NCBI RefSeq assembly: GCF_900114635.1
Contig: NZ_FOTQ01000001.1
Location: 682,001 to 746,000, forward strand
Reading direction: 5' to 3'
Length of the DNA: 64,000 nucleotides
Source: Shimia aestuarii
Lineage (GTDB): Bacteria > Pseudomonadota > Alphaproteobacteria > Rhodobacterales > Rhodobacteraceae
Position 1 is the first letter of the stretch; each line of letters opens with the position of its first letter. A model generated the notes under the pieces. That model was given only the letters and a program-made list of their open reading frames with translations. It was not told the DNA's origin and made no database searches. A program made the translations under genes and the position numbers. Below are positions 11,599 to 31,150 of the stretch, piece after piece.

Positions 11599-11605
11599 AT
11601 CTCGG

Positions 11606-14597: not shown

Positions 14598-14600
14598 GTC

Positions 14601-15461: not shown

Positions 15462-16019
15462 ATGACCTTCCTTCCTGGCGTTCCGTCAGGGGCCCGCGCC
15501 CCCGCGAAAAAGCATAGGGCGCGCAATTCCGCGCGCCTTTGTCCTAGTCTTGCGCCTGCAGCCCGTGCGGATCAAGCGCTGTTTTCATTCATGGAGCCGG
15601 CACAGCCTGCCCCATGTTCCTGACCTCGGGTCAACAAGATGGCCGGGGATACCGGGCCCGCCAACGCCCCTGATCGCGACACTACACACAGGCCTCCGCC
15701 TGCGGCGCCACGCGCCCTGCCGCTCCGACTCCCTTATCAGGGGGGCACATAACCACACGCACGGCATGCACGGCGAAACGCGCGTTGTTGGCTGATACTC
15801 TTACATGTTTGCGCTCTCGGGTTCGGGCAACAGCGACACATTTTTGCCGACAACCGACCCGAACTGCAAAACCGGAACAGCCCTGAACAGAACACACGCA
15901 CCGCACACGCCAAACGCCTGTTGCATCGGCCCGCTGGATTGGTTTGTCAGAAGATTTTCGGCGTCTGAGCCAAGGCAGGAACCCGGCATGGCCCGGGCGT
16001 TGCTATGGGCAAGGACCCA
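15462..16019. other. Intergenic region left of the integrative element
   Basis: This 558-bp gap lies between the FAD subunit start and the left attachment repeat. It must contain the promoter of the molybdenum hydroxylase operon near 15462-15550. Open frames here on both strands have atypical composition and no domain, and none is called. It is chromosomal flank that would join directly to the tRNA-Leu region in an empty site. Confidence 0.5.
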
Positions 16020-16043
16020 ATGGTGCGGTCGAGAAGACTCGAA
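16020..16043. repeat. attL, left copy of the tRNA-Leu 3' end
   Basis: These 24 bases, starting ATGGTGCGGTCGAG, are identical to 31063-31086, which cover the encoded CCA, acceptor 3' strand and T arm of tRNA-Leu(GAG). The rest of the tRNA is absent here, as expected for an attachment duplication rather than a second tRNA gene. Confidence 0.92.
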
Positions 16044-16091
16044 ACTCACCGAATTTCCGAAAAGCCTTAAAAATAAGGGGATAAGGAGCAA

Positions 16092-16128
16092 CGTCACACA
16101 TCCGTTCGTTACCCTTTGTGTGACGTTT
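16092..16128. promoter_or_regulatory. Left arm-type integrase site (candidate)
   Basis: CGTCACACATC at 16092-16102, then 12 bases, then TTTGTGTGACGTTT at 16115-16128. The same two words with the same spacing and orientation occur at 30972-31008 near the right end. A pair of identical sites just inside both ends is what arm-type binding sites of a tyrosine integrase look like; binding is inferred. Confidence 0.65.
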
Positions 16129-16179
16129 ATTCTGAGGCAACGCGCCACTCGCACGGAGTGGTGCAGTACAAGCGCAACC

Positions 16180-16743
16180 CTAGTCAGCTTGACCAACAAC
16201 GAACCCCATCTGACACCAGAACTCGTAGGTCTCTTTCGGAAGAGGGGGAACAAGGTCTGGCATCACATACGGAGGGTATCCATCCACGACGCTTTTCTTC
16301 ATCGGGAAGAAAACCCACTGGTAACCTGTATACGCGCCGAACTGGTTCTTAGCGTTGATGTAAAGGCATGCGGTTTGCCATCCGTGATTGCCGACGAAGA
16401 GGATCTTCTCTTTGATTTTTGCGGATCCGAAGTCCAAGAGGTACGTTTCCAGTTCCTCTGATACCGCAGCGTCGAGCAAGTCTGTCCATTCGGCTTGCCA
16501 TTGCTCTCGTCGTTTGAACTCGATGTCCAATGCAATCGAAGCGAAATTATTGTCGACATGATACCTCTTGGAGTATTCCGCCATAGCTTTTCTAGTCCCC
16601 GGCCCAGTCAGACCATCGATCTTCGATTCGTACAAACCAAGGCGAAACAATGCATGCTGCATAGCCCGAGTTCCGTTGCGGTCTGCAGCTACTGCAGAGG
16701 TCGAGAACAAACAAATCGCCATGATGGCAGAAAGTCTTTTCAA
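16180..16743 (-). CDS. Secreted peptidoglycan-binding-domain protein
   Basis: 187 residues from a TTG start at 16743 preceded by AGAGGA. A signal peptide (MKRLSAIMAICLFSTSAVAA) is followed by a PG_binding_1-like segment with QHALFRLGLYESKIDGLTGPGTRKAMAEY (residues about 29-57). The remaining 130 residues are not recognised and include YQWVFFPMKKSVVDGYPPYVMPD. It is the gene closest to attL and is probably cargo; an envelope or periplasmic role is inferred. Nothing links it to the restriction operon except position. Confidence 0.7.
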   Translation of the reverse strand: MKRLSAIMAICLFSTSAVAADRNGTRAMQHALFRLGLYESKIDGLTGPGTRKAMAEYSKRYHVDNNFASIALDIEFKRREQWQAEWTDLLDAAVSEELETYLLDFGSAKIKEKILFVGNHGWQTACLYINAKNQFGAYTGYQWVFFPMKKSVVDGYPPYVMPDLVPPLPKETYEFWCQMGFVVGQAD

Positions 16744-16855
16744 TAGAATATTCCTCTTGTCGCAAGTCTACTTTCGTCCGGTCAATTTCCGAAGCAATGA
16801 ACTGAAAGAGCATGTCTAGCAAAAAGCTGAAGCGCTCCTCAACATGGGAGGCCAC

Positions 16856-19180
16856 CTATTCCGCATACAGTTTTTCCTGCATGCGGAGGAAAGCCTTTTT
16901 GATAGCGGGTAAATCGCCTAACCTTGCTTTGCCCTCACTGACACTGCCGTACCGCGCTGTAAGGAAGGCCCCCAGCTTTTTGGTTGCTAGCTCTCTTTCC
17001 CCTCGTGCCTCATAGGCGCTTAGAATTGCAAGCAGCAATTCCTTCATGTCTCGTTTGGCGTCGGCAAGTCCGCCGGTGCGAACGACATTTGCGCGGTCGT
17101 GGCGCGTCTTGGGCGTATTGGTGAATAGAATGTAGCTCAGGACATCGAAAAGATCGCTGTCTGGCGCGTCAACCAACCTGCGTATGTCATCCAGCCTATC
17201 GCGGTCGTATCCACGATCAGAAAGCTGTTCGAGGAACCTCTCCCGATTATCAGGGGCACTCCACATAGCCCTGAGTTGATCCTCATCAGTGACGATCCCA
17301 GAAAGATCGCCGAACAACCGCTCTAGGAACTCGGCCGCAGTTATCGGCTTACCCTCAGGACTCCAGTAGGTCGTCGCGGAAACGTATTTGATACGACGGA
17401 CACTACCATCCGACAGTTTCACCTCGATTTTTGCGCGAGGGGGATCGTCAGGACCACCGCCACCCGGTTCCGGCGGTTCGCCCCCCGGTTCAGGTCCGGT
17501 TGGAGGGGTGCGCGGTCCTTTCGGGGGTTCTGGAGCCAGCGGTTCTCCGTCCCATTCTGGATCGTTGAAGTTTTCGTGCGCCCTCACGAAATCCCAAATC
17601 GTGAAGAAATCCTTACCTTCATAGGTTCGGGTCCCTCGCCCGATAATTTGCTTGAATTCGATCATGGAGCGAATTGGACGCATCAACACGATGTGCCGAA
17701 TGTTGCGCGCATCTACACCCGTGGAGAGCTTTTGCGAGGTCGTCAGAACCGTCGGAATGGTCTTGGCATTGTCTTGGAAGTCGCGAAGGTGCTGTTCCCC
17801 TACTGCCCCATCATTGGCCGTAACACGGTGGCAGTAGTTCGGGTTCGTGCTGTCTTTCACTTGGTTGATCAAGTCGCGCACCAATGCCGCATGATCTTGC
17901 GTAGCGCAGAACACCAGTGTCTTCTGCCGCTGATCGATTTGGCCCATGAACTCCCTCACGCGGCTCAATTCACGCTCGGGAATTACAATCCTGGTGTTGA
18001 AGTCACCTTCGGTGAAGGTCTCTCCGTCCTCGATCTCACCCGCGACCAATAAATCACTGCCGTCATAGACGTATTCGTCAATGGTGCTGGCCATCTGGCG
18101 AACCTTGAAGGGCGTAAGGAAGCCATCCTCGATCCCGTCGCGTAGTGCATACGTATAAACCGGCTCGCCAAAGTAAGCATAGGTATCAGCGTTATGCTTG
18201 CGCTTAGGCGTGGCCGTCAGGCCAAGCTGCGCCGCTGGTTCGAAATACTCCAGCAACCGCCGCCATTCGCTTTCGTCCTTGGCGCCGCCACGGTGGCATT
18301 CGTCAATCACGATGAAGTCGAAGAAGTCTGGCGGGTACTGGGTGTAGACCGGTTCGCCCTCGCCAGTCATGAAGGTTTGGAAGATCGTGAAGAACAGGCT
18401 CGCGTTTTTAGGAGGCATGCCCTTGTTCTTGCGAATAGTGTCCGGGTCAATCCGGGTCACAGCGTCACTGGGAAAGGCGGAGAAGGCGTTGTAAGCCTGA
18501 TCGGCTAGGATGTTGCGGTCGGCTAGGAACAGGATGCGTGGGCGGCGCACAGGCTCTCCTGAGAGATTCCATTTGGCCCGAAAGAGCTTCCAAGCGATCT
18601 GGAAGGCGATGGACGTCTTACCGGTGCCCGTGGCCAGCGTCAGAAGGATACGACGATCCCCCTTTGCCACAGCCTCCAGCGCAGCCGTAATAGCCTTGTG
18701 CTGGTAGTAGCGGAGTTCCCACTTGCCTCCATCGGTCTCGAAATCCACAGCGCCAAAACGTTCACGCCAGTCGTTTTGGTCGGTAAACGTACGGTCCCAA
18801 AGCTCATCAGGTGTCGGAAAGGGCAAGGACATGTCGCCCTCTGCCCCGTTGGCCATGTCGATCTGGTACCAATTCAATCCATTGGAGGCATATGCAAAGC
18901 GAGAGCCAAGACGCCCAGCATAGTCCTTTGCCTGCCCTACGCCGTCGCGATGGCTCAGCCCAGCGCGTTTTGCTTCCAGAACAGCGAGCTTCTGCCCCTT
19001 GTGGATCAAGACATAGTCAGCCGACAGACCTCGCCCGCGTGTACCACCTGACTGGATGCGCCCCGGACAAATTACCTCACGACGAACCTTGGAGCCATTC
19101 TGTCCCCATCCCGCCGCTGCAAGAACAGGGTCAATCCGCTCCGCACGGGTATCAGCTTCGGTTTCTTCGTGAATACTCAT
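16856..19180 (-). CDS. hsdR: Type I restriction enzyme, motor/nuclease subunit HsdR
   Basis: 774 residues. The N-terminal nuclease region has the PD-(D/E)xK pattern (DYVLIHKGQKLAVLEAKRA, about 53-71). The SF2 motor has Walker A LATGTGKTSIAFQ, DECH box IVIDECHRGG, TATPKRKHN and motif VI IIGRGTRTYEGKDFF. A Pro-rich linker (about 540-570) precedes the C-terminal EcoEI-type domain. It translocates DNA and cleaves unmodified DNA with HsdM2S. It is the last gene of the leftward operon, 4 bp after an unrecognised gene. Confidence 0.95.
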   Translation of the reverse strand: MSIHEETEADTRAERIDPVLAAAGWGQNGSKVRREVICPGRIQSGGTRGRGLSADYVLIHKGQKLAVLEAKRAGLSHRDGVGQAKDYAGRLGSRFAYASNGLNWYQIDMANGAEGDMSLPFPTPDELWDRTFTDQNDWRERFGAVDFETDGGKWELRYYQHKAITAALEAVAKGDRRILLTLATGTGKTSIAFQIAWKLFRAKWNLSGEPVRRPRILFLADRNILADQAYNAFSAFPSDAVTRIDPDTIRKNKGMPPKNASLFFTIFQTFMTGEGEPVYTQYPPDFFDFIVIDECHRGGAKDESEWRRLLEYFEPAAQLGLTATPKRKHNADTYAYFGEPVYTYALRDGIEDGFLTPFKVRQMASTIDEYVYDGSDLLVAGEIEDGETFTEGDFNTRIVIPERELSRVREFMGQIDQRQKTLVFCATQDHAALVRDLINQVKDSTNPNYCHRVTANDGAVGEQHLRDFQDNAKTIPTVLTTSQKLSTGVDARNIRHIVLMRPIRSMIEFKQIIGRGTRTYEGKDFFTIWDFVRAHENFNDPEWDGEPLAPEPPKGPRTPPTGPEPGGEPPEPGGGGPDDPPRAKIEVKLSDGSVRRIKYVSATTYWSPEGKPITAAEFLERLFGDLSGIVTDEDQLRAMWSAPDNRERFLEQLSDRGYDRDRLDDIRRLVDAPDSDLFDVLSYILFTNTPKTRHDRANVVRTGGLADAKRDMKELLLAILSAYEARGERELATKKLGAFLTARYGSVSEGKARLGDLPAIKKAFLRMQEKLYAE

Positions 19181-19184
19181 CAGC

Positions 19185-19907
19185 TCATTGTCCCGGGTTG
19201 CGAGGCTTCATGTCACGCAGGAAACGTTCCCAATGCGCCTTGGCAATGGTTTGCCCCTCTTCCAGCTCGGTCTCATCGCGCAGGAACTCTAGCGGGTACC
19301 ATTTACCGTTGCCCTCCTGATACAGGACCTGTTCATAGATGTTCCCTGTGTGTGAGATGCGCCAAGGTTCATAGGCCTCAGACAAGAGCGTATAGGCATG
19401 GTTCAGGCTGGTCGCCGGTTCGCTCGACACACACTCTGGCAGGATGATCTGCGAGGACTCCAACCCCACCGCTCGCCACCCTTGGACGGTAAGCCAGAGA
19501 CCACCGCTTTCCATGTCCGGCAATTGCCGCTGTCTGTCGTCGGCAGGGCCAATTTCGACCTCAACAAAGTTGCGCAAAGCTGACCGCCGTTCCCAGCGTT
19601 CAAACCATTTACCAAGACTTCGAGACGCGAAATCCGCAGGCAACGTCGCCTGTCGAAGTTCGTCGGTGACTTCTTCAGGACGGCTACCCGACAGCATTGC
19701 AATCAGCTTGGTACCCTTCTCAAGAATCCTGATCGCTTTCTTGCTGCGCAGCGATTTCAACAGAGCCGGATCGCTGATCTTGTCCTCGCTGATAATTAGT
19801 TCGCATTCCGCGCCGTCCGCAACTGGGACGGCACCGCCAAACTCCATTTCAAATGCACCGTCGACGAAGCGAATGGGTAGGCGGTGTTTTTTTGGTTGCT
19901 GGCTCAT
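19185..19907 (-). CDS. Unrecognised 240-residue protein inside the hsd operon
   Basis: I do not recognise this family. It lies between hsdS (10 bp upstream) and hsdR (4 bp downstream) and is clearly co-transcribed. The N-terminal 60 residues look like a small beta-rich domain (LPIRFVDGAFEMEFGGAVPVADGAECEL). A charged middle follows (ASRSLGKWFERWERRSALRNFVEVEIG), then a C-terminal part rich in aromatic residues (HAYTLLSEAYEPWRISHTGNIYEQVLY, WYPLEFLRDETELEEGQ). There is no signal peptide or membrane segment. Position suggests an accessory subunit or regulator of the type I system, but this is inference. Confidence 0.85.
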   Translation of the reverse strand: MSQQPKKHRLPIRFVDGAFEMEFGGAVPVADGAECELIISEDKISDPALLKSLRSKKAIRILEKGTKLIAMLSGSRPEEVTDELRQATLPADFASRSLGKWFERWERRSALRNFVEVEIGPADDRQRQLPDMESGGLWLTVQGWRAVGLESSQIILPECVSSEPATSLNHAYTLLSEAYEPWRISHTGNIYEQVLYQEGNGKWYPLEFLRDETELEEGQTIAKAHWERFLRDMKPRNPGQ

Positions 19908-19917
19908 GATGCTCCCT

Positions 19918-21012
19918 TCAAGTCAATTCACCCGCGAAGGCTTTCTGCACAAGGGATTGTCGAAGGTCTTCGAGGTCTTGAAGCTTCGCCTCGTAGAGCA
20001 CCTCAGCTCGTCCTATCTGTTCACTAATTGCATCCATGTGTTCGACTATTTTCTTTTGTGCATCGCGTGACTTTGGAAGCTCTACAACTTCATAATGCAC
20101 ATCGTTCCTGTTCAAAGTTGGAACGCCTGCCCCAGATGCAAATCGCGCAAGGTTAAAGCTCTTTAACATATGGAATACGAACCTAGGCTCGTTGCCGTGA
20201 AAATCTTTGACGTACAGTGCGGTATTAAGTGGCCAAAAATCTTCTTCGATGAAAAACACATTCCCAATACTCCCACTTCGCCCTGTTACGACACCCGGAC
20301 CTTTTACTTTTGCCTGTGAATGGGTGTCCGTTGGCCCACTCGACGTGACCAGTGGAAAACGTCCTCTCGTTCTGAGCCTTTTCGGAAGATCAAAACCACG
20401 TTGAAGCGTGGCAACATCACCCAACTTAAGTCTATGCCATCCTTCCTGAGTTTCTGGAGGATCAAGCGCAACACTTCGAGCGCTCTTCAACAACTCCTGT
20501 GCGTTTTGGAGGTTGGCTTCGGCATGGGCGCGAGCGCGAACCAGCCCCTCGAAGGCCTCGTCCAGAACCGCCACAATTCGCTGTTGTTCTTCGAGTGGCG
20601 GCAATGGGATTGGGATTTCCCGCAGTCGACCTTGGTTTAGCTTAGGAACCGTCATGCCAGATATGAACGGCATTAGGTCCGCACCGTTCAAGTAGTAGAT
20701 CAGCCAGCCATCCAAGACTTGGTCTCTATGCGGGCGGATCACATGAGCATGGTTGTTTACCCACGTCTTGCCCTCAATAGCGAAAGCTGAGTTTGCACCA
20801 GCTTCCCACTTCGCACCATCTTCGCCAATTAGAACCAATGGTTCATCGAAGAGGTATCCGTCCACGTGGTCAAGGACACCGGTAGCTCCATAGTATGGAT
20901 AAGGGCCGGCCTTCCTATCTTTTTTGGTGATCGGTTTTCTCAATCGGTCGAGCACATCCACTAGATCGCCCAGTGGCTTCGTTGGCCAGCCGAACTCAGC
21001 GATGTCCTTCAC
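19918..21012 (-). CDS. hsdS: Type I restriction enzyme, specificity subunit HsdS
   Basis: 364 residues from a GTG overlapping the hsdM stop (GTGA). Two target-recognition domains are visible (about 8-130 and 185-310), each followed by a long helical repeat: the first IPLPPLEEQQRIVAVLDEAFEGL and the second LPKSRDAQKKIVEHMDAISEQIG. It sets the bipartite DNA target of the complex. Both domains are intact and no frameshift is seen. Confidence 0.95.
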   Translation of the reverse strand: MKDIAEFGWPTKPLGDLVDVLDRLRKPITKKDRKAGPYPYYGATGVLDHVDGYLFDEPLVLIGEDGAKWEAGANSAFAIEGKTWVNNHAHVIRPHRDQVLDGWLIYYLNGADLMPFISGMTVPKLNQGRLREIPIPLPPLEEQQRIVAVLDEAFEGLVRARAHAEANLQNAQELLKSARSVALDPPETQEGWHRLKLGDVATLQRGFDLPKRLRTRGRFPLVTSSGPTDTHSQAKVKGPGVVTGRSGSIGNVFFIEEDFWPLNTALYVKDFHGNEPRFVFHMLKSFNLARFASGAGVPTLNRNDVHYEVVELPKSRDAQKKIVEHMDAISEQIGRAEVLYEAKLQDLEDLRQSLVQKAFAGELT

Positions 21013-22457
21013 AGCACCCCCCGAATGTCTTGGAGGATTTGCGTAGTCTCGGCATCCCGTGCCAGCATGTCGGTGATGATCTCTTCGGGGCTACGGAGCG
21101 CCTCGGCCTCGGGTGCGTTGGGATTCTTGACCGACAGGTCGTAGGTGTCCTCGTCCAGATCGGCGCGGTTGACGATCCAGCTTTGCGGCTCGTTTGGGCG
21201 GGTGCGTTGCAGCTCCACGAACTCCGCCAGATCGTCGTCGTTCAGCGGGCTGGTCTTGCCAAGGCTGCGGCCCGGATCAAGCTGGTAATACCAGATGTCC
21301 CGCGTCGGCGCGCCTTTCTCGAAGAACAGCACCACGGTTTTTACACCCGCCCCTTGAAACGTGCCTTGCGGGCAATCGAGAATAGTGTGTAGCTCGGCAA
21401 CCTCCAGCAATTCCTTGCGCAGCGCGACCGAGGCGTTGTCGGTGTTACTGAGGAAGGTGTTCTTGATCACCACCGCAGCACGTCCACCGGCTTTCAGTTT
21501 GCGGATGAAGTGCTGAAGGAAAAGATAGGCAGTCTCGCCCGTACGGATCGGAAAGTTCTGTTGAACCTCCCGCCGTTCGCCGCCACCAAATGGGGGATTG
21601 GCTAGGATAACGTCGTGACGATCCTTCTCCTGAATGTCCATCACGTTCTCGTTCAGCGTGTTGGAATGCAAGAGGTTCGGAGCTTCGATCCCGTGCAGGA
21701 CCATGTTCATGATCCCGATGATGTAGGCGAGACCCTTCTTTTCCTGTCCATAAAAGGTCTTGGCTTGCAAGGTCTCGAACTCGGACGCCGATAGGGTGTC
21801 AGTCCTCATGTAGTCGTAGGCCTCGCACAAGAAGCCCGCAGAACCACAAGCGCCGTCATAGATGGTTTCACCGATTTTCGGATCAGTCACCTTGATCATG
21901 GCCCGGATCAGCGGACGAGGCGTGTAGTATTCGCCCCCATTGCGGCCAGCGTTGCCCATGCGGCGGATACGGGTTTCGTAGAGTGCCGAAAGCTCGTGCC
22001 GTTCGGCTTGCGTGTTGAATGACAGGCTGTCCACCTGCTCCAGCACATCGCGCAGTATATAACCCGACCGGAACTTGTTGCGCAGCTCTGTGAACACCTC
22101 GCCGATTTTATACTGGATCGTCTGTGGTCCAGTGGCTGACTGCCTGAATGCAGCGAGATATGGGAACAAGTCCTGATCAACGAACTTGATCAGATCGTCC
22201 CCGATACGCGCGGTGTTGTGATCGAACTCTCCGCCCTTCTTTGGCGCGGCCCACTTGTCCCAACGGAAGTCTCCATCGATGATCGGTGTATAGTCTTCGC
22301 CATCTAGTTCAGCGCGATCCTGGCGTTCTGTTTCGAGGTCATGAAGGTACTTCAAGAACAAGACCCATGAGGTCTGTTCGACGTAGTCGAGTTCGTTGGC
22401 GATGCCCTCTTCTGCTCTCAGGTCTCGCTCAATCTTGTTGAATGCGTTTTCGTACAT
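21009..22457 (-). CDS. hsdM: Type I restriction enzyme, methyltransferase subunit HsdM
   Basis: 482 residues from the ATG at 22457; an in-frame TTG at 22472 would add five residues. The N-terminal HsdM helical domain is followed by the N6-adenine methyltransferase domain with SAM motif DGACGSAGFLCEA and catalytic NPPF (VILANPPFGGGE). GGEYYTPRPLIRAM is the family signature. It methylates the hsdS-defined site and protects host DNA. It is the first gene of the operon hsdM-hsdS-orf240-hsdR. Confidence 0.96.
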   Translation of the reverse strand: MYENAFNKIERDLRAEEGIANELDYVEQTSWVLFLKYLHDLETERQDRAELDGEDYTPIIDGDFRWDKWAAPKKGGEFDHNTARIGDDLIKFVDQDLFPYLAAFRQSATGPQTIQYKIGEVFTELRNKFRSGYILRDVLEQVDSLSFNTQAERHELSALYETRIRRMGNAGRNGGEYYTPRPLIRAMIKVTDPKIGETIYDGACGSAGFLCEAYDYMRTDTLSASEFETLQAKTFYGQEKKGLAYIIGIMNMVLHGIEAPNLLHSNTLNENVMDIQEKDRHDVILANPPFGGGERREVQQNFPIRTGETAYLFLQHFIRKLKAGGRAAVVIKNTFLSNTDNASVALRKELLEVAELHTILDCPQGTFQGAGVKTVVLFFEKGAPTRDIWYYQLDPGRSLGKTSPLNDDDLAEFVELQRTRPNEPQSWIVNRADLDEDTYDLSVKNPNAPEAEALRSPEEIITDMLARDAETTQILQDIRGVL

Positions 22458-22831
22458 GCTGCCCCGGATCAATTGCCATTCACAGGCGTTTCTTTCGATT
22501 GCCTGTTCAAGTTTCTCTTACCATGGCTCCAGTTCGGCACAAATGTCCAGCGACGCTCACCCCTAGGGTTGTGGTATTTTGTGGTCGCATCAGACTTGGA
22601 TTGTGCAACATTTTTGAAATTTTTTGCGCGCAAATCAAATGGCTTTCCGAAAGCAGATTATGTGAAAGAATGTCTAAATGGGTCCCTGCAACTGTTTTTG
22701 AAATTCGGTGAGTTCGAGAGCCACGGCACCTGTAACCCCAGTTTGTGATTGGACGTACCCCCGTCAGGAACCTTTGCCGCTTGGCAAAAGGCTCGCTGAC
22801 AGGGAGACCAATGGAAAGACAATGCCGGAGT
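22458..22831. other. Intergenic region between hsdM and resolvase
   Basis: This 374-bp gap holds the hsd promoter (leftward), as hsdM starts at its left edge. It also holds the 3' flank of the leftward resolvase gene. An A+T-rich stretch around 22600-22640 is the likeliest promoter area. Frames on the plus strand here show no domain. No terminator was recognised. Confidence 0.4.
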
Positions 22832-23467
22832 TTACATGCCCCAGCGGACCAGCGCCGCTTCTGCCGCAGCAGGGTCTTCTTTTATTCGCAGGACGGCTTG
22901 ACGCGATATACCTGCAGCTCGCGAGATTTCAGAAGTTCCGCTTCCCTGCGTTAGCAGATCACGAACCATCGTGAACGTCGCCCGATCAAAGCTAGGCTTC
23001 CTGCCGGGGTATTTCCGCGCATCGCCTTTTGCGTGGGCAATCCCTGCCCGCTGGGCCTGCTTCGTGGCTTCTGCCTGTGCCTGCGCAGTTGCCGCCATGA
23101 AAGCGATTAGCGCGTCCCGGACAGCCTGTTGCACGGGGTCTGTGGTGGAACCATCAAAGGTCATTCCGTTGATTACGGTCTTGATCACAACCCCTTTCCG
23201 CATGAACTCGCGGATTGTGTCGGTTACATCCGCGTAGTCCCGCCCAAGACGGTCGACCCACCGAACCACCAGAACGTCTCCAGAGCGCAGTTTGTCGAAA
23301 AGGCGGCGCCCCTCGGGACGTTCGGCAAGCTTGGTACTAATACCGGACACGCCTTGATCAGCGACCACGTCGTCGATCTTGAACCCAGCGGCCTCTGCGT
23401 GCGTTCTCTGATGCTCCAAGGTTTGGTCCGCTGTTGAGACGCGTGCGTACAGGATCGTCTGGGTCAT
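22832..23467 (-). CDS. Small serine recombinase (resolvase/invertase)
   Basis: 211 residues. The catalytic domain starts TILYARVSTADQTLEHQR, with the nucleophile serine in YARVS, and continues with DQGVSGISTKLAERPEGRRLF and VRWVDRLGRDYADV. The C-terminal HTH contains RDLLTQGSGTSEISRAAGISRQAVLRIKED. AGGTGA lies upstream of the ATG. It is distinct from the large recombinase at 2170. It may resolve dimers of the element or be left over from a nested transposon; inverted repeats upstream look like its res site. Confidence 0.93.
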   Translation of the reverse strand: MTQTILYARVSTADQTLEHQRTHAEAAGFKIDDVVADQGVSGISTKLAERPEGRRLFDKLRSGDVLVVRWVDRLGRDYADVTDTIREFMRKGVVIKTVINGMTFDGSTTDPVQQAVRDALIAFMAATAQAQAEATKQAQRAGIAHAKGDARKYPGRKPSFDRATFTMVRDLLTQGSGTSEISRAAGISRQAVLRIKEDPAAAEAALVRWGM

Positions 23468-23479
23468 TTTTGGTCACCT

Positions 23480-23595
23480 TTTGTCCGTAAGGGTAGTGTC
23501 CTTTGTTTATCGTGTCCGTTGATGATTCGATACCCTTACGGACACATTTTTTCGCAACAATCCAATTGACCGCAAGGGCATAGCCTTGCGGACAC
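23480..23595. promoter_or_regulatory. Candidate res site of the resolvase
   Basis: TGTCCGTAAGGGTA at 23482-23495 has a perfect inverted copy at 23531-23544. A third site CCGCAAGG/CCTTGCGG forms an inverted repeat at 23570-23591 and ends in GGACAC. Three related TGTCCGYAAGG sites just upstream of a resolvase fit a three-subsite res locus, which would also autoregulate the gene. Confidence 0.65.
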
Positions 23596-23994
23596 TCTAT
23601 AAAACTCTTGCCCTCCTTGTGGTTCAAAAAAGTCAAATAGAGGCCCTAGAAATTTGCGAACCGCAGGAAGCAGTTTGCCGAGGCAACCGTGTTAGAACGG
23701 TTAACATTGGCAGGCCTGACCGCTTAGCACAGATGGGCAGCCACAAAACGAGATTGATTCCTTCCGCATACGAAAAATGGGGGATGTTCACGAGACCCCA
23801 AACTTGCACACATGTTAAATATTTTGATGTTGCACTGTCAGAGGCAGGCGGCTGCTGTGATGGGCATTTCCGGTCAATTGGTCAGTTAACCAACCAAATC
23901 TGGGGGGATAGCGTGCAAGGCGATGCAGGCATTTGAGAACCGCTGCAACATAGAGAGCTTGTAAACTTACCCCTCCCATTGCAGCCTACTGGGT
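23596..23994. other. Intergenic region, no supported gene
   Basis: This is about 400 bp between the res-like site and the zinc-ribbon gene. A plus-strand frame at 23586-23936 (116 codons) has no recognisable domain, no ribosome site and starts inside the res-like repeat, so it is not called. The stretch 23810-23840 is A+T-rich and could hold a promoter for the zinc-ribbon gene. Confidence 0.4.
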
Positions 23995-24192
23995 ATGAAT
24001 TGCCCGTACTGCGACACAGACCTTTCACCCACTTCTATTGCCTGCCCACAGTGCGGGCACGATATGCTTTCAGATGACAATGCTATGGCCCACCCGCATT
24101 TTCCTCCGTCACCTCCTCCGCTCCCAGTAACGCACAGTTTTTGGCTCGTTGTTGCGTTTATCGGCATTCTACTGATTTTTTTCATGTTCTAG
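23995..24192 (+). CDS. Small zinc-ribbon membrane protein
   Basis: 65 residues: an N-terminal zinc ribbon (CPYC at 4-7 and CPQC at 18-21), a Pro-rich linker (HFPPSPPPLP) and a C-terminal transmembrane helix (FWLVVAFIGILLIFFMF). It is the only plus-strand gene in the element. The ribosome site is weak. Tail-anchored zinc-ribbon peptides are often of unknown role, and no function is claimed. Confidence 0.6.
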   Translation: MNCPYCDTDLSPTSIACPQCGHDMLSDDNAMAHPHFPPSPPPLPVTHSFWLVVAFIGILLIFFMF

Positions 24193-24251
24193 GCACAACC
24201 GCCGCCAAGTAGGCCCGATCCATGCGCGCTGCCTGTGTGCAGGTATCGGGG

Positions 24252-24572
24252 CTGATGACAGGGGTCTGATGACAAGGGGGGCTAGGCCCCGTCATCCCCC
24301 GGAAACATATGTTTTTACCCATTATCCTGTGTATCGGGGTGTGTGGGCCAAAAACATATCTTTCCTATAGTAATCCTGAATATACCTGCCATCAGAAGAA
24401 TACCTGCCATCAGAAGCCCCAAACCCCTTGTACACAAGGAGATTTCTGATGCCAGCCCTGATGCCAGCCTGATGCCACCCCCCTTTTCCGCTCTACCCCG
24501 ACATCAGAAAAACACTGGGCTGATGCCAGTCCTGATGACAACCCCTGCCCCTTGGCATCAGGCTGGCATCAG
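24252..24572. repeat. Iteron-like array (candidate replication origin)
   Basis: About ten copies of CTGATGNCA occur in both orientations: 24252, 24266 (GACA form); 24386 and 24404 (inverted, inside a 17-bp unit ATACCTGCCATCAGAAG repeated with an 18-bp period at 24382 and 24400); 24446, 24458, 24469 (11-12 bp apart); 24520, 24532; and inverted at 24553 and 24564. A near-palindrome AAACATATGTTT lies at 24303-24314. It is non-coding and sits directly downstream of the Prim-Pol gene, where satellite and plasmid origins often lie. Confidence 0.75.
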
Positions 24573-24576
24573 ACAG

Positions 24577-24602
24577 AAAAAAGGCCGCTAACGCGGCCCC
24601 TC
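24577..24602 (-). terminator. Rho-independent terminator of the Prim-Pol gene
   Basis: Read on the minus strand, GGCCGC-GTTA-GCGGCC (24583-24598) is followed by TTTTTT. It lies about 30 bp after the Prim-Pol stop and separates that transcript from the repeat array. Confidence 0.85.
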
Positions 24603-24627
24603 CTAAGTATCCAACACACAACCCCGA

Positions 24628-27600
24628 TCATATCAAATCCAGCTTCTCGAACCGGTACAGTGTACCGTGTTTATCCTTGTGAGCTTTTTTCAGAACATAC
24701 CGCCCATGGTGCTGCACCTCTTCGGTCTGTTCGTCGCGCCATTCCCGCACAGGGGACATATTGCCAATGAAACCGGCAATCGTGTTTCGGGCCTTATCAG
24801 GATAAAACACATTGCCAGACTCGTCGGTTAGGTAACCCCAGTTCTTCATGGCGATGCCCTCAACGTTCAGAACGTCCTTCATGATCGAGATAACGCGGTG
24901 GTCTGCATATTCGAACGGCTTCCGTTCGCCTACCTTGCCGACCTCCTTAGGGGCTGCGTGCGCCTCCCCCACGCGGAACAGGGTGGGAACCTTCAGTTGC
25001 AGATCGATCATCGCGTCGAGAAGTTCTGCTTCCGGCGAAACAGCTTTCACCGTCGTCTTCATCTTGTCCCGGTTGCCAAGGAAGCCCTTGATCCCTGCGG
25101 CCTCAAGGATGCCGCCAATGACCTTTGCGTGACTCTCAAAGCCCCCCAGCGCCTGCCCTGACCATTCAGGGCACCCCTTGGCAATCCAATTCTGAACGAG
25201 GGTCAACAGGCAGTGCAGGTATTCGCCCGCGTATGCGGGCACGTGTTCAGCCAGATTGTACTTGAAGGAGGTAGTCGGACGGTCGCCGGGGTTTTCCATT
25301 TCCGGATCAATGTCGATCAGTATCATCCGGTCTGCTAGCTCTTTGCTCAAATGGGTGCGATTTCCGGTGAACATGAACACGGCTCGCACGGCGGCGTCGA
25401 TCATTTCTGTGACACCCAATCGCCGCCCCGAATACAGCGGGTATGCCGTCATCGCCGCCGCCAGTTCCCCAAAATCCACTTTCCCGTCATCTGGCATGTT
25501 ATCGAAGAATATTTGAGGCCGACCGCTATCCACCGACGCCATCACCGTTTTTGACACTTCGTCCGCCTTGTTCGGCAGTGACTGAGGGGCGGGATTTTGC
25601 AACGTCGCCATGTATCCAATGTTGCTCAGCGCCAATGTGGCCCCACTTCTGGGCTGATCCTTTCGCCCCAAGTGCCCCGGAGTAGCCCCCAATATAAAAT
25701 CACGGCAAATGGACGTCATCCCCACCGACAACAAGTGACAGAACGACGGCGACTCTAGCCCGTCAACGATCCCGCCCCCGATGTAGGTCTCTTTCGTGAT
25801 CCTCTGGTCTTCGTCGCGTTCAATCTCGCACCCTGTCATTTGCTCACGTGACAGTGCATCAAGCGGGAAGTCGGCGAACACATCGACCAGTTTACTGACC
25901 GTCTCCCTGACCTCATCTTCGGTTGGAACGGCGCTGACCGGCGGGATAATCACGCCTTCCTTCGGCTTGTAGTACAGCCCAGACGCCGCATGATAACCCG
26001 GCTCTGTGATTAAGTTTTTGTCCACATCGTAGACAGGTGAACTGATCACGCGATGTAGCGCCGGGTACCCGGTCAGCGGCTTTTGGTACACATTATTGAC
26101 CACCCCTTGCGGGGCTTCACCAACTTCTCCTTTGCTCTCGAAGTCGATCCGGTCTTCCATCAACGCCTTATATCGGTCCTTACCAATAGCACGAATGTTA
26201 ATATTTCCGTTCTCATCTTCCCGGATATCCACAAGCCGTTCCGTGCTGTGGAATAGTTCCGGTTCGTTGCCTTGATCGGTCATAATTGCGTATGTTTCGG
26301 CGCATGCCTCGCGAAAGGATTCACTGACAGAGACAAGCGGGAAGTCCGAGTCGTGCACCGCGCCCTTCAGATGCTTCAACATCTTCCGGACTTCGGCGAT
26401 AGGAAGCCCCGACACCGTCTTCAGACGTTTTGCCAGTTCCTCTGCAATAACCGCCGTCAATGGTGCTTCGATCTGATCAATGAACGAATCCAAAGCTTCC
26501 TGTTCAGGGGTATCACCGAGGTTTTTGACGGCCTCTGACACATCGGCACGGGTTTCCAGCTTGATACCGTCGCCTGACGGCGACTTGCCGCTGTGCTCCT
26601 GACTTTCTGCGTCGAACTCTCCCCCGCCTGCGGCTTCGAATGCCGCCGCCTCCGCCTCTTTCGACCTGATATAACGCCGGGCGTTCTCGATCTCCTCCAA
26701 CAGGTGAGACTCGGTATCATACTTAGTGGACTTCCCACGCCCGCCCTTACGCTCCGCAACGGCAATCGCGTCCTGTAGCTGGGTCAAAAGCTCCGCAGTA
26801 TCTGCGTCTGCCCCATGCGCGCTGAACCATGAGCATGCGGCGCTGTAGATCGGGGCATTGAACCCCTTGCCCCCGGCGTGGTCTCCAATATTGGACAGGT
26901 GTGCCTCAAAGCCGCGACTGTCGCCGCTCGGTTCTTTCGGTTCATACACCTTCGACGGCGCTTGCCCTTCCGGACGGAGACGTCGCCCGTGCCCTGCCTT
27001 CGTCTGTGTCTGCTTTGAAGCTTCTAGCGCCGCTGTGACCAACCATTCCGGGGCTTCTGCACACTCAATCTCCCCCGGCGCGCAACCTTCTTTCCACTGG
27101 TAATAACCAAGTGACGGATGCACAGACGGAGCGGCCACAATACAGCCGTTCTTACCGCGAATGTCGATCTTTGGACCAACTTCGTTGCTGCTGTTGTGAA
27201 TCTGCACGTCAGCCTTGAAAATGCGGTGCTGCCCGCCGGAGCCGCTGACAGACGTCCACGTCTCGGGAAGCTTGCCGTGCTTTGCTTCTAGGTCGAGAAC
27301 AGACTGCATCCCTGTTTCGCCGTCCTCGTCCAAAACGAACATCCCGCAACCCGGAGGAAAAGTCAGTCCGACGTTACGTGGCTTGTCCACCGCCGCATAG
27401 TCATGGATGTCACCCTCTTTGTCAGCGGGGTACTTACCGTCCCCAGTCCATCGCGCGCCCAACTTGTCGTGGGACGTGGAAGACTCGTTCTGCCACCCCG
27501 CACCGCGTGGGTGTTTGATGCCTTTCCCCGAAGTGAGAGTCGGATAGCCTGTGTTGTAAAGTCCGTGGCAGTCGATTGCATGGAGACCGCAATCGCCATA

Positions 27601-27909
27601 GTGCATCGCTGCTGCCAACGTATAAGTATTGTGCAAGGCAGACCCGGCGTGACTCGGGTCGTCATAGTCACGCCGCAACCCTGCGTCAAAGAGCGTTGCC
27701 GCTGCTTGGTTCCAGTACCTTCCATAGGGGCGCTGTCGTGCATCTGCATAGGCATCCCTACCCCGCTTCGTATGGTAAGGATTCCGTTTCGACGGGACCC
27801 CCCAGATACCTTTGACTGGCAGGGGGTCAAATGGTAGCGGCGGCTTCGGTTTCGCTTTCTTCTCTGGTGCCTGTGTGTCGGCGGTCTTCTGGGCTGCTGC
27901 CTCAGTCAT
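24628..27909 (-). CDS. Prim-Pol / AAA-like replication protein
   Basis: 1093 residues from an ATG with AAAGGAG eight bases upstream. After a Pro/Lys-rich start, residues about 95-290 form a bifunctional primase-polymerase domain: DKLGARWTGDGKYPA, the acidic site GMFVLDEDGETG, SGSGGQHRIF and KIDIRGKNGCIVAAPS. Residues about 350-560 are helical. Residues about 700-1000 look AAA+-like, with Walker-B-like QIFFDNMPDDG, sensor FMFTGNR and Arg-finger region LADRMILIDIDPE. The expected P-loop lysine is not seen (ATPGHLGRKDQPRSGATL). It likely primes replication of the element at the adjacent repeat array. Confidence 0.85.
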   Translation of the reverse strand: MTEAAAQKTADTQAPEKKAKPKPPLPFDPLPVKGIWGVPSKRNPYHTKRGRDAYADARQRPYGRYWNQAAATLFDAGLRRDYDDPSHAGSALHNTYTLAAAMHYGDCGLHAIDCHGLYNTGYPTLTSGKGIKHPRGAGWQNESSTSHDKLGARWTGDGKYPADKEGDIHDYAAVDKPRNVGLTFPPGCGMFVLDEDGETGMQSVLDLEAKHGKLPETWTSVSGSGGQHRIFKADVQIHNSSNEVGPKIDIRGKNGCIVAAPSVHPSLGYYQWKEGCAPGEIECAEAPEWLVTAALEASKQTQTKAGHGRRLRPEGQAPSKVYEPKEPSGDSRGFEAHLSNIGDHAGGKGFNAPIYSAACSWFSAHGADADTAELLTQLQDAIAVAERKGGRGKSTKYDTESHLLEEIENARRYIRSKEAEAAAFEAAGGGEFDAESQEHSGKSPSGDGIKLETRADVSEAVKNLGDTPEQEALDSFIDQIEAPLTAVIAEELAKRLKTVSGLPIAEVRKMLKHLKGAVHDSDFPLVSVSESFREACAETYAIMTDQGNEPELFHSTERLVDIREDENGNINIRAIGKDRYKALMEDRIDFESKGEVGEAPQGVVNNVYQKPLTGYPALHRVISSPVYDVDKNLITEPGYHAASGLYYKPKEGVIIPPVSAVPTEDEVRETVSKLVDVFADFPLDALSREQMTGCEIERDEDQRITKETYIGGGIVDGLESPSFCHLLSVGMTSICRDFILGATPGHLGRKDQPRSGATLALSNIGYMATLQNPAPQSLPNKADEVSKTVMASVDSGRPQIFFDNMPDDGKVDFGELAAAMTAYPLYSGRRLGVTEMIDAAVRAVFMFTGNRTHLSKELADRMILIDIDPEMENPGDRPTTSFKYNLAEHVPAYAGEYLHCLLTLVQNWIAKGCPEWSGQALGGFESHAKVIGGILEAAGIKGFLGNRDKMKTTVKAVSPEAELLDAMIDLQLKVPTLFRVGEAHAAPKEVGKVGERKPFEYADHRVISIMKDVLNVEGIAMKNWGYLTDESGNVFYPDKARNTIAGFIGNMSPVREWRDEQTEEVQHHGRYVLKKAHKDKHGTLYRFEKLDLI

Positions 27910-28331
27910 TCACTTTCTCCTTTCATTGCACCCCGACTGGGCGCTGGGCACAGCTCCGCCGATCACAGAAACACTGTTTCTGCGCGATGGCGGACCACGA
28001 TGTGATGGTGCCCGATTAGATTGTGCCCACTACCTCTAGCAGGCGGATGAGTTGGACATGATGCACCTTTCTACGCACCCGTCAAATCACTGAAATGTCC
28101 GAAAAAATTTCTTTTCGGACATTCAGGCCGAAACTCGCCTTTAAGGCGAAAACTCTTTCTCTTTAAGACGAAATCTACGAAATTCTGTGAGTCCGCACCG
28201 CAACAGCCAAGAGAAATCTAGCCATGACGATGAGCTGCCTAGAGGACTCCGATTTGCCTGCCATACCCGAATCACACGAGACTAGTGGCTCGGAGACGAT
28301 GACCTTGTCGTTCCCAAAGTGGCATTATCGT
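27910..28331. other. Non-coding region with hairpins upstream of the Prim-Pol gene
   Basis: This 422-bp gap contains the Prim-Pol promoter. It holds a palindrome CAGAAACACTGTTTCTG near 27966-27982, a strong inverted repeat ATGTCCGAAAA (28095-28105) and TTTTCGGACAT (28112-28122), and TCGCCTTTAAGGCGA near 28136-28150. None has a clear U-tract, so operators are more likely than terminators. No gene is supported. Confidence 0.5.
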
Positions 28332-28565
28332 CTACTCTTCTAAGAGATTGACCGGCTCTGGACCGGCCACGGATCGCCACAGGCCATCTTCACAAAGCCA
28401 GAAGCCAGAGGCTCGAAGGCCTCGTGCCACAGCCAGCGGGCCAACCCTCAAATTGTTGCAGAGGTCCCTGCCTCGAACCACTACGACTGTGCCGCGCTCG
28501 ATCTCACTGAGACGGTCACAGACATACTCGATCACCGATAGCAGTTGTTTCGACATGTCAGCCAT
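28332..28565 (-). CDS. Small unknown protein, third gene of coupled trio
   Basis: 77 residues with ATG at 28565 overlapping the previous gene by eight bases (ATGGCTGA). The sequence has an acidic helical start (LLSVIEYVCDRLSEIERG) and a basic middle (VVVRGRDLCNNLRVGPLAVARGLRASGFW) that could be a small winged-helix DNA-binding fold, with GFWLCEDGLWRSV as the wing. This is a guess from pattern only. It is the last gene before the hairpin-rich region. Confidence 0.65.
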   Translation of the reverse strand: MADMSKQLLSVIEYVCDRLSEIERGTVVVVRGRDLCNNLRVGPLAVARGLRASGFWLCEDGLWRSVAGPEPVNLLEE

Positions 28566-28992
28566 TCTGGTGCAGCCTCTCCTGAATGCGATCTGCGAGG
28601 TAGCGGTCCAGCTCGCCGTTGCGTGCCAGCGTTACGCGTTGGTCTGGACGAAGTGAGGCCAGTTCTTCCTGACGCATCGCCTCTCGCTTCCTTTCGTCTG
28701 AGAAGGCGAGATTGCGCTGAGCGATTTCGTTTTCATTTACCAGTTTCTGGACGAAGACACCCCACTCGGCATGCGTAGTAGGTATACAACCACTTATTCC
28801 CTCCACACTCGCCAAGACCTCAGGGCATGTCGTACTTTCCTGAACGAGAACGTGCGCAACTATCGGCGAAAGACGGTCGCCGTAGAAACGAGCCAGCTCG
28901 ACGGCTACTTGCGTATGAAAGTCTTCCAGTCTCCGAAGTTGGGGCTTCGTAAGACCAGCCATGATATTCCGGATTGTGTTCTGATCAGACAT
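28558..28992 (-). CDS. Unknown helical protein, second gene of coupled trio
   Basis: 144 residues from the ATG at 28992, chosen because it overlaps the upstream stop by exactly eight bases (ATGTCTGA), as its own stop does with the next gene. Mostly helical and charged: GLTKPQLRRLEDFHTQVAVEL, FVQKLVNENEIAQRNLAFSDERK and LASLRPDQRVTLARNGELD. No known domain recognised. A role in element control or replication is inferred from position only. Confidence 0.7.
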   Translation of the reverse strand: MSDQNTIRNIMAGLTKPQLRRLEDFHTQVAVELARFYGDRLSPIVAHVLVQESTTCPEVLASVEGISGCIPTTHAEWGVFVQKLVNENEIAQRNLAFSDERKREAMRQEELASLRPDQRVTLARNGELDRYLADRIQERLHQNG

Positions 28993-29218
28993 TGTACCCG
29001 CCCTCCACAAACAAGGCCTTGGTCTGTTCAGGTGAAATGCCGAATGTCGCCTTTAGACGTGGCAGAAGAACGCCTATTGTGTAGTGCCGTTCTTGCCCCC
29101 CTGCCTTTGCAGCGGAAGCGATAGTGATATAGGGAAGCGGGTAAGGGCGTGACAGGGCGCGATACACACGGCCCTTAGATACGCCCAGCGCCCGCGCGAC
29201 TTTTGACGCGGTAAGCAT
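28985..29218 (-). CDS. Small HTH DNA-binding protein (AlpA/excisionase-like)
   Basis: 77 residues. An HTH opens the protein (LTASKVARALGVSKGRVYRALSR), followed by a wing-like stretch (LPYITIASAAKAGGQERHYTIGVLLPRL). Small proteins of this type beside a tyrosine integrase act as excisionases or as AlpA-like activators. It is the first of three translationally coupled genes and has AAGG upstream of the ATG. Confidence 0.75.
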   Translation of the reverse strand: MLTASKVARALGVSKGRVYRALSRPYPLPYITIASAAKAGGQERHYTIGVLLPRLKATFGISPEQTKALFVEGGYNV

Positions 29219-29267
29219 AGCGAAACCTTAGAGTTGTTATGTAGGAAAAACGCGCCCCCGGCACGGT

Positions 29268-29291
29268 GGGCCGACACCCCCGGTGTCGCCC
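29268..29291. terminator. Hairpin downstream of the integrase (candidate)
   Basis: GGGCCGACACC and GGTGTCGCCC (29268-29278 and 29282-29291) form a GC-rich stem with a short loop. On the minus strand a TTTTT follows only about 20 bp further on. It may terminate integrase transcription before the small HTH gene or act as an operator; the weak tail keeps confidence low. Confidence 0.4.
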
Positions 29292-29375
29292 TTTAGTGTG
29301 TGAATAATGCCACACAAGATCGCCTGTGTCAATGTAGACGCGCAAACGGTCACGCCATTTGCGTTGCCAGTTCTA

Positions 29376-30950
29376 TCACCCGCGCATGGGGTCGACCTTT
29401 TCCAACGACTCCAGCAAATAGGCCATGCCCGCACCGTCGCCGTACCCGCCCTCCACAGAGTCCTCATTGGCTCTTCCGGAAAGATAGCGGCGGTGCGGAT
29501 CCGACATATTGACGTTGTCGCAGGCATCCTTAAACCGGTGCCGGAACGAATGAAAAACCGCCTTGGTGTCAGTGATCTCCAACTTTTTCCGCAACAGGTG
29601 TGAGAATCGTTTGCCGTAGTTTGCTGACACGCGTCCGCGTTCGTCCGGTGTCAGTTCCTCCAGTTTTTTGCTGTTCCTCCCCCATTCATTGAAGGCGAAG
29701 GCGTCAGCCGCGCGCGCCTCAACCACGCCGCGCAGCCCCGCCGCAATCAATGCCGGGTGCACTGGCACCCACCGGACGGACGCCGCATTTTTGGTCTTCT
29801 GCTCTTCGCCTTCGTCCGTGATCTGCATCGACCAGACGCCTCCGATGTCCTTGAAGTCGCCCCTCATAAGTTGACAGGCTTCCTGCAGCCTAAGACCGTG
29901 GTGCGCCGCTATCCACGGCGCCCAGCGGTCGATTGTGGTCACGCCGTATTGATCCGCGTTCGATCCTTTGACGAATTCCAGAATTTTCCTGACCTCTGCT
30001 GCTGTAAAGGCGCGGCGGGGCTTTTCTGCGCTGTGCTTGGTCTTCGGTTTGACCAGCTTCATTCCAGCCCATGGATCAGGCTCCACAAATCGCCGCCCAA
30101 CCGCGTGCGACATGAGGCCTTTCAACATGTCGAAATATTTCTTCTGCGTCGAATAACCGATGGTCTCCGCCCCGGTCTTCTTCGCATCCGCGATAAGCTG
30201 CTGAACCGTCATTTCCCGACGCTTGCCGCTCTGCACTTTGGGCAGACCTTTTAGCACGTCCGTGAATTCGCGGAGATGTACGCCGGTCAGGTCCTGCAAC
30301 GCGATTTCGCCGTGAAACTCCGTGAAGCGGCGCACGTAGGTTCTAGCGTTCTCAGCAGTATGTACATCAACGGACGGTGCCCAATCCTCCACCAGATCAC
30401 GCAGGCTGAACACGTCGCCGACTAGTTCAACGCCTTCGCCGATTTGACGCAAGACCCGCCCCCGCGCATTTGTCTGTGCCTTTATCTCCGCTGACGCGGC
30501 CCTGTGCGCTGCCACTTCGACCTGCAAGGCCTCGGGGTCTACATCATCAAACACCTTGATCGGCTGACCGTTGGGACCTTCTACAATCTCTGCACCACCG
30601 GCGAAGGGTTCACCAGCCGCCATGAACGCCAGCGCGTCCTTGCCGTCCTGAAATTGTTTCAGCAGGCCTGACAGCCCGCCTGCGCGGTCCAAAAGTGCCT
30701 TCTGGTCCGGCGGCAGATGGCGGGCTAACGCCCGCCATCCTTCCTCTGCCTTTGATTGTTCAAGCTGCGCATCCATGATTGCCCGGATTGCCCGGACTTC
30801 CTTCTCAGCGGTTTTCGGGTCGCTGGTTTTCAGACTCTTCTGGTAGACCTCTTTACCATCCCAGTGCTTGCGGATTTCTTCCGGCACGCGAATCTTGGCC
30901 TGATATCGCCCCCGTAGCTGGATCGTTCCCTCAATCTTTGGCAGTGCCAT
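29376..30950 (-). CDS. int: Tyrosine integrase of the element
   Basis: 524 residues from an ATG preceded by GAGGTGG. The N-terminal arm-binding-type region (MALPKIEGTIQLRGRYQAK) leads to a core-binding SAM-like domain (about 200-290) and a catalytic domain. Catalytic residues are visible: Arg in HHGLRLQEAC, HxxR in HSFRHRFKDAC, and a C-terminal region LSGRANEDSVEGGYGDG with the likely nucleophile Tyr. It starts 113 bp from the tRNA-Leu attachment repeat and is the obvious integrase for the 24-bp att core. The long N-terminal part is typical of large alphaproteobacterial integrases. Confidence 0.95.
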   Translation of the reverse strand: MALPKIEGTIQLRGRYQAKIRVPEEIRKHWDGKEVYQKSLKTSDPKTAEKEVRAIRAIMDAQLEQSKAEEGWRALARHLPPDQKALLDRAGGLSGLLKQFQDGKDALAFMAAGEPFAGGAEIVEGPNGQPIKVFDDVDPEALQVEVAAHRAASAEIKAQTNARGRVLRQIGEGVELVGDVFSLRDLVEDWAPSVDVHTAENARTYVRRFTEFHGEIALQDLTGVHLREFTDVLKGLPKVQSGKRREMTVQQLIADAKKTGAETIGYSTQKKYFDMLKGLMSHAVGRRFVEPDPWAGMKLVKPKTKHSAEKPRRAFTAAEVRKILEFVKGSNADQYGVTTIDRWAPWIAAHHGLRLQEACQLMRGDFKDIGGVWSMQITDEGEEQKTKNAASVRWVPVHPALIAAGLRGVVEARAADAFAFNEWGRNSKKLEELTPDERGRVSANYGKRFSHLLRKKLEITDTKAVFHSFRHRFKDACDNVNMSDPHRRYLSGRANEDSVEGGYGDGAGMAYLLESLEKVDPMRG

Positions 30951-30971
30951 GTCGCCACCTCAAAATGGAAT

Positions 30972-31008
30972 CGTCACACATCATTGTGTGACATTTTGTG
31001 TGACGTTT
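30972..31008. promoter_or_regulatory. Right arm-type integrase site (candidate)
   Basis: CGTCACACATC (30972-30982), 12 bases, then TTTGTGTGACGTTT (30995-31008), repeating the left-end site. The 12-base spacer itself contains TTGTGTGACA, a further partial copy. The site overlaps the likely promoter of int, which would permit autoregulation. Confidence 0.65.
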
Positions 31009-31062
31009 TTCAAGCTTAGGGGCCTGTTGTTCTTAATGTTCTTTGTTTTCATGAGAAAAATG

Positions 31063-31086
31063 ATGGTGCGGTCGAGAAGACTCGAA
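31063..31086. repeat. attR, inside tRNA-Leu
   Basis: This is the right copy of the 24-bp direct repeat. It consists of the encoded CCA, the discriminator, the acceptor 3' strand and part of the T arm of tRNA-Leu(GAG). Because the tRNA on this side is complete, integration leaves the host tRNA functional. Confidence 0.92.
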
Positions 31087-31150
31087 CTTCCACTCCGGTT
31101 AAGGAACAGCGACCTCAACGCTGCGCGTCTACCAATTCCGCCACGACCGC
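31064..31150 (-). tRNA. tRNA-Leu (GAG)
   Basis: The minus strand gives acceptor arm GCGGTCG/CGACCGC, anticodon stem-loop CAGCG-TTGAGGT-CGCTG with anticodon GAG, a long variable arm, T arm GAAG-TTCGAGT-CTTC, discriminator A and an encoded CCA (31064-31066). It is the integration target of the 15-kb element. Confidence 0.96.

Follow-up and report, generated by a model that had tools for sequence, protein, structure and literature searches.

What kind of mobile element occupies the tRNA-Leu(GAG) gene of Shimia aestuarii, and how would it move between cells? The question is raised by a 15-kb region (16020-31086) of the window, i.e., the whole 64-kb stretch of DNA that was analysed (contig NZ_FOTQ01000001.1, positions 682,001 to 746,000). 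The earlier note on this DNA had described the region as a tRNA-Leu element that resembles phage satellites or phage-inducible chromosomal islands (PICIs) rather than a prophage or a conjugative element. The best explanation, to which a probability of about 0.58 is assigned, is an integrative and replicating island, complete and 15 kb long, of the phage-satellite type that would be spread in the particles of a helper phage. The boundaries, the gene content, the iterons, the association of the integrase family with tRNA genes and the recurrence in other genera are seen directly in the sequence, and from these excision, replication, helper use and packaging are inferred.

Boundaries and core genes of the element

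A 24-bp perfect direct repeat corresponding to the 3' end of tRNA-Leu(GAG) brackets the element, as had been noticed before. The distal attachment (att) repeat is located at 16020-16043 (plus strand) and the tRNA-proximal copy at 31063-31086 (plus strand), inside the intact tRNA-Leu(GAG) gene that serves as the host target (31064-31150, minus strand). These were the only two matches in the window when up to 3 mismatches were allowed, and shuffled sequences gave 0. The GC content was 0.55 within the element and 0.625 in the remaining window, and both the att repeats and this GC step agree with the boundaries first proposed. Next to the intact tRNA gene, with its open reading frame (ORF) starting 113 bp from it, lies the tyrosine integrase (29376-30950, minus strand; phrog_1, PF20172, PF13102) that had been placed there. 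With repeats derived from a tRNA 3' end and a tyrosine integrase adjoining the undisrupted gene, this is a tRNA-targeted integrative element.

Arm-type repeats (TGTGTGACG), which the earlier note did not mention, were identified within both ends: an inverted pair of sites (TGTGTGACGTT) inside the left end (16089-16128) and three sites (TGTGTGAC) inside the right end (30969-31008). The number of TGTGTGACGTTT matches in the 64 kb (at most 2 mismatches) is not above chance, with 5 observed and 3.7 expected; what supports them is their position, since all five lie on the inner side of the two att cores at a distance of 46-94 bp, and this further suggests that the two ends are parts of a single element.

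The main genes are on the minus strand and head away from the tRNA, in the expected order of integrase, small proteins, primase-polymerase (Prim-Pol) replication protein (Rep), repeat array and cargo. Searches of the own genome gave a single match for the integrase and a single one for Rep. The small proteins had been called a trio of helix-turn-helix (HTH) proteins, which could be upheld for one of them: a 77-aa protein in an excisionase/AlpA-like position (28985-29218, minus strand; 60% in element G204) gave weak, below-cutoff HTH matches. No HTH match was obtained for the 150-aa protein (28558-29010, minus strand), which has one below-cutoff match to a domain of unknown function, relatives in G204 (56%) and G163 (30%) and, when modelled alone, a poor AlphaFold prediction (mean pLDDT 62.4), nor for the second 77-aa protein (28332-28565, minus strand), which matched neither Pfam nor PHROG. 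A small serine recombinase of the resolvase/invertase type (22832-23467, minus strand) had been overlooked. The tyrosine integrase would recombine the two copies of the tRNA-Leu 3' end and release a circle, with the small HTH protein as a putative excision factor or regulator alongside it, and the serine recombinase would probably resolve multimers.

Ten ORFs of the element were searched against Pfam (E ≤ 0.01) and 12 distinct ORFs were covered by the Pfam and PHROG scans together. In line with the earlier statement that recognizable virion and conjugation genes are absent, no capsid, terminase, relaxase or type IV secretion system (T4SS) family was matched. A prophage would carry capsid, portal, terminase and tail genes between its att repeats; here only weak endolysin matches of a 187-aa protein were found. 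The region might instead be an integrative and conjugative element (ICE), an integrative and mobilizable element (IME) or an actinomycete ICE (AICE) with a transfer gene that escaped recognition. A Prim-Pol combined with an integrase does occur in actinomycete AICEs, but no relaxase, FtsK-type translocase or Tra, or T4SS family was found among the ten ORFs, and this explanation is considered very improbable. A decayed prophage or other former element, retained only for its restriction system, would likewise have no virion genes, and a related remnant exists in G397. However, the integrase, Rep and hsd ORFs are uninterrupted, the lengths of integrase and Rep resemble those of their relatives, the att repeats are perfect, and the core of integrase, Rep and recombinase recurs elsewhere, with no virion match among 20 relatives' proteins scanned (two sets of ten); decay is therefore regarded as improbable.

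Rep and the putative replication origin

Rep (24628-27909, minus strand; 1093 aa) carries at its N-terminus the Prim-Pol domain named in the earlier note (PF09250, E 5.5e-25). Its C-terminal module, which phage proteins also have, we infer to be helicase-like. The make-up of the protein is mosaic, with 73% identity to Rep of G204 over residues 13-447 and 56% identity to Rep of G261a over residues 448-1092. For G204 the listed open frame alone was used, and Rep-like homology runs on past a TGA. Proteins of six Rhodobacter/roseobacter phages share 33-35% identity with the C-terminus; for RcXuper, one of these phages, the value is 34% over 420 residues (E 8e-63).

Directly behind rep (24252-24572), the iterons of the earlier note could be confirmed as nine copies of CTGATGMCA in both orientations, together with a perfect 20-nt inverted repeat. 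The motif occurs once elsewhere in the window, in which 1.25 copies are expected. As single-stranded DNA, this segment folds better than 100 of 100 shuffled sequences (z -6.3). Judged by its sequence, the array is probably the replication origin, and Rep, with its primase-polymerase and helicase-like module, would bind it beside its own gene and thereby replicate the element.

Such arrays are a frequent property of these genes. A single 9-mer was present at least six times within 900 bp downstream of 12 of the 19 rep genes with enough downstream sequence, compared with none of 614 control genes from these regions (Fisher P 6e-21, nominal because the control stretches overlap). G405, in which fewer than 600 bp follow rep, was dropped from this count, and the seven rep genes without an array are those of G163, G217a, G202, G369, G232, G046b and G341. 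The iteron motifs vary between elements, even between those of Shimia aestuarii and G204, which have the Rep N-terminus in common, and this suggests that Rep-iteron pairs are element-specific.

Rep, iterons and resolvase also form a plasmid-style maintenance set. The element could thus be an integrative plasmid-like replicon that Rep and the iterons maintain briefly as a plasmid after excision, and that spreads between cells through transformation, generalized transduction or mobilization in trans, with no dedicated helper phage. The Shimia copy has no packaging gene in the scans, and tblastn against plasmids found rep relatives on 18 plasmid records, all of them remote (at most 37% of the protein covered). 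On the other hand, no relaxase, T4SS or partition family was matched in the ten ORFs searched against Pfam, the Rep C-terminus is common to phages of related hosts, related elements have a size mode near 15 kb, and eight relatives carry a gene resembling a small terminase (TerS). This explanation is possible, though unlikely.

Related elements and possible packaging

The earlier proposal to look for kin of the integrase and Rep at other tRNA-Leu sites proved fruitful, as the core of integrase, Rep and recombinase was found in other genera. At E ≤ 1e-40, nine integrase matches were obtained in 394 genomes of the same family (own included), and all nine lie beside a tRNA gene: Leu(GAG) in six cases, Thr(GGT) in two and Pro(TGG) in one. 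The five closest of these integrases occupy the tRNA-Leu(GAG) site of five genera other than Shimia; Pseudohalocynthiibacter aestuariivivens BS-W9 (NCBI: Rhodobacterales, Paracoccaceae) is a host of one tRNA-Leu(GAG) integrase. Three tRNA-Leu(GAG) relatives are bounded by 23-25-bp repeats and measure 12.87, 14.75 and 24.96 kb, and in the first two, arm-like repeated motifs could be seen by eye at both ends. The 14.75-kb element G140 (L153) shares with the Shimia element the tRNA-Leu(GAG) site, a 42% identical integrase, Rep with adjacent iterons and a serine recombinase, and differs from it in its TerS-like gene, its iteron motif and its cargo. By a homologous integrase at this tRNA, Rep with adjacent iterons and a serine recombinase, the Shimia element belongs, on sequence grounds, to the tRNA-Leu(GAG) family of G261a and G140. 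Two other loci at this tRNA are of separate note. In G082 (L151:35-1708) an ORF resembling the N-terminus of Cas9 by eye lies near a 57% identical integrase, and the G397 remnant, with 7.76 kb between 16-bp repeats, contains an ORF (L135:6281-7402) in which a TerS-like segment is joined to the C-terminal part of a Rep.

Rep relatives were present in 27 of the 394 family genomes with a three-row profile and in 38 with a nine-row profile; among 376 genomes sampled from the class, 6 had one (own included in each count). After wider flanks were fetched, 14 elements, own included, had tRNA-derived repeats with rep inside. Their sizes are 12.87, 14.29, 14.66, 14.75, 14.76, 14.84, 15.04, 15.05, 15.65, 15.82, 15.96, 17.70, 23.54 and 24.96 kb (median 15.05 kb; 11 of 14 within 12.9-16.0 kb). 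A small serine recombinase was found in 12 of them, a seed-matched integrase in 11 and a TerS-like gene in 5. The repeat counted for G217a is 14 bp long. Left out were the G397 remnant, G369 and G232 (repeat pair without rep), G140b, G389 and G065 (21.98, 30.94 and 18.11 kb; weak Rep profile match, E ~1e-36 to 1e-41), and loci without a repeat pair (e.g., G160, G261b) or cut by the contig end (G082, G341, G405). A strict 15-kb capsid rule was rejected when the wider flanks revealed the elements of 17.7, 23.5 and 25.0 kb. A genome-collection scan with Rep gave no relative; when the integrase alignment was used instead, two loci came up, both of them already known as G082 and G036.

Related small TerS-like proteins are encoded in eight relatives (G140, G261a, G261b, G160, G156, G163, G036 and the G397 remnant), mostly between integrase and Rep. 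A seven-row profile of these proteins matches the small terminase of Pam5 (E 7e-4), and three of seven members weakly match a small-terminase PHROG (best E 0.015); tblastn of one TerS-like protein against the phage collection found nothing. The satellite part of the original assignment is strengthened, relative to prophage and ICE, by the recurrent tRNA-end family, the size mode of ~15 kb, the terminase-like genes in some relatives and the iterons at rep. Transfer in phage particles is the best-supported route, in which a helper phage would package the DNA of the element and deliver it to a new cell, with re-entry at tRNA-Leu(GAG).

Several results weigh against the satellite explanation. The TerS-like protein has no Pfam match, a profile-profile comparison of five family rows with three PF03592 proteins was negative, and in the TerS-like profile search a designed coiled-coil chain outscored the Pam5 small terminase; the TerS label is weak for these reasons, and the protein is called TerS-like and not TerS. 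The Shimia element itself contains neither a TerS-like gene nor a remnant of one (six-frame hidden Markov model search of the window), so the PICI label does not hold, and no packaging-redirecting gene was found among its scanned ORFs. Because of this, it would have to use a DNA site or an unrecognised gene for packaging, by analogy with the phage-inducible chromosomal minimalist islands (PICMIs), in which no homologue of terS, sid or ppi was identified and for which headful packaging is suggested (PMC10803314). Two elements reach 23.5 and 25.0 kb, so any constraint by capsid size is loose. Nine of the 38 rep loci have neither an integrase nor a serine recombinase in the stretch fetched; Rep alone is therefore not family-defining, and some of these loci may be prophages. 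The integrases of several Rep elements (e.g., G204, G217b) are of another type, which indicates that parts are exchanged between elements. Scans of IMG/VR with Rep, the integrase and two alignments gave no relative. Finally, no helper was identified: a resident prophage with integrase, capsid, portal and terminase (contig C18, ~224-236 kb, L162), whose terminase match spans one TAG, is a candidate only. A second head-gene cluster of the same genome (contig C11, L161) was taken by eye as a gene transfer agent.

Cargo, flanking genes and comparison with known satellites

The cargo consists mainly of the type I restriction system that had been recognized before, and all three subunits are present on the minus strand: HsdM methyltransferase (21009-22472), HsdS specificity subunit with two Methylase_S stretches (19918-21012) and HsdR (16856-19180; 774 aa). 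Between hsdS and hsdR the operon contains a gene for a 240-aa protein (19185-19907, minus strand), newly noted here, that matched neither Pfam, PHROG nor PADLOC. This restriction-modification (R-M) operon would serve as defence cargo. It is followed by the gene for the 187-aa protein (16180-16743, minus strand), which matches phrog_2320 (unknown; E 3e-8) and weakly the two endolysin PHROGs (E 0.0035 and 0.0046). The sequence that adjoins the left att core on its inner side (16043-16062) recurs in inverted orientation, with 18/20 identical positions, at 22695-22714. The two copies bracket the cargo block of R-M operon and 187-aa gene, and the sequence following the inner one resembles a decayed att end. 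The best of 40 control stretches reached 15/20 and 13 other elements 12-14/20; among the 14 elements, an inverted copy of the distal end was found in the Shimia aestuarii element alone. A 65-aa ORF with a zinc-ribbon-like start by eye (23995-24192, plus strand; weak PHROG matches) may not be a gene.

The site was compared within the genus in 25 genomes (own included, 24 congeners), in all of which the tRNA region was matched at least partly. Four of the 24 congeners have integrase matches (26-33% identity), located away from their tRNA-Leu. The empty-site comparison proposed earlier succeeded on one side: the right flank could be aligned from the tRNA outward over more than 1.2 kb in 6 of 24 congeners, whereas on the left no uninterrupted congener offered a match for the boundary, as the neighbour on that side is a different one. 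The transporter at 9923-10852 ends ~180 bp from the tRNA in G310 and lies ~1.2 kb away in G296. Between it and the element, 10850-16019 holds DsbA-like and molybdenum-hydroxylase (cox-type) genes. These 5.2 kb were not found near the tRNA in congener loci reaching ~1.5 kb beyond it; close homologues of part of them are present elsewhere in six congeners, and no third repeat copy assigns them to the element. None of ten flanking genes scanned is a phage gene. Farther away, a 613-aa large serine recombinase (2017-3858; phrog_95, E 9.5e-97) beside tRNA-Ser(TGA) (4218-4307) possibly marks another mobile element.

Phage satellites in general are described as att-bounded, 7-20 kb in size and equipped with an integrase, regulatory and replication genes but no structural genes (PMC13376191). 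The Shimia element has all of these properties, with weak support for the regulator. P4-like elements resemble it in having an integrase, a primase-helicase Rep and no virion genes, and the origin of P4 is of the iteron type. They differ in host order, being described from Enterobacterales. Their defence hotspot is comparable to the cargo seen here (PMC8628076 and PMC10803314), but the families for the markers psu, delta, epsilon, AlpA and alpha (Pfam list in PMC8628076), PF07455, PF04606, PF10554, PF05930 and PF03288, gave no match at E ≤ 0.01 in the ten proteins. PICIs, described in Firmicutes and Gammaproteobacteria (PMC10803314), are of the same size class and also have an integrase, a small regulator, a primase/rep and att repeats, and some relatives of the Shimia element carry a TerS-like gene; in PICIs, however, TerS redirects packaging, and the Shimia element has no terminase family. 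The PICMIs of Vibrionaceae share a small excision/replication core, the absence of a capsid-remodelling gene and defence cargo, but integrate next to fis, whereas the Shimia element lies at tRNA-Leu(GAG) and carries a serine recombinase and an R-M operon. Virion-encapsidated integrative mobile elements (VEIMEs) and tycheposons are transduced chromosomal islands of marine bacteria (PMC10803314); the Shimia element would resemble them in being carried in virions.

Since the features tested for PICI, P4-like elements and PICMI do not fit, the tRNA-Leu(GAG) family is probably a new satellite-like family. In agreement with the earlier note, a limited literature search turned up no paper on such a satellite from this Rhodobacterales group; the best-described satellites are those of enterobacteria, Firmicutes and vibrios (PMC10803314). 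More tentatively, at odds somewhat short of even, the elements may together constitute an undescribed satellite family largely confined to one Rhodobacterales family. Its members would combine tRNA-specific integrases, chimeric Prim-Pol/helicase-like Reps with their own iteron code and a resident serine recombinase with, in some, a terminase-like packaging adaptor, exchangeable defence cargo and a usual size of ~15 kb imposed via the helper capsid. As the ends of such elements are clear, Rep is encoded by one gene and the iteron code varies from element to element, helper use, Rep-origin recognition and defence carriage become directly testable, for example in the relative Pseudohalocynthiibacter aestuariivivens BS-W9.

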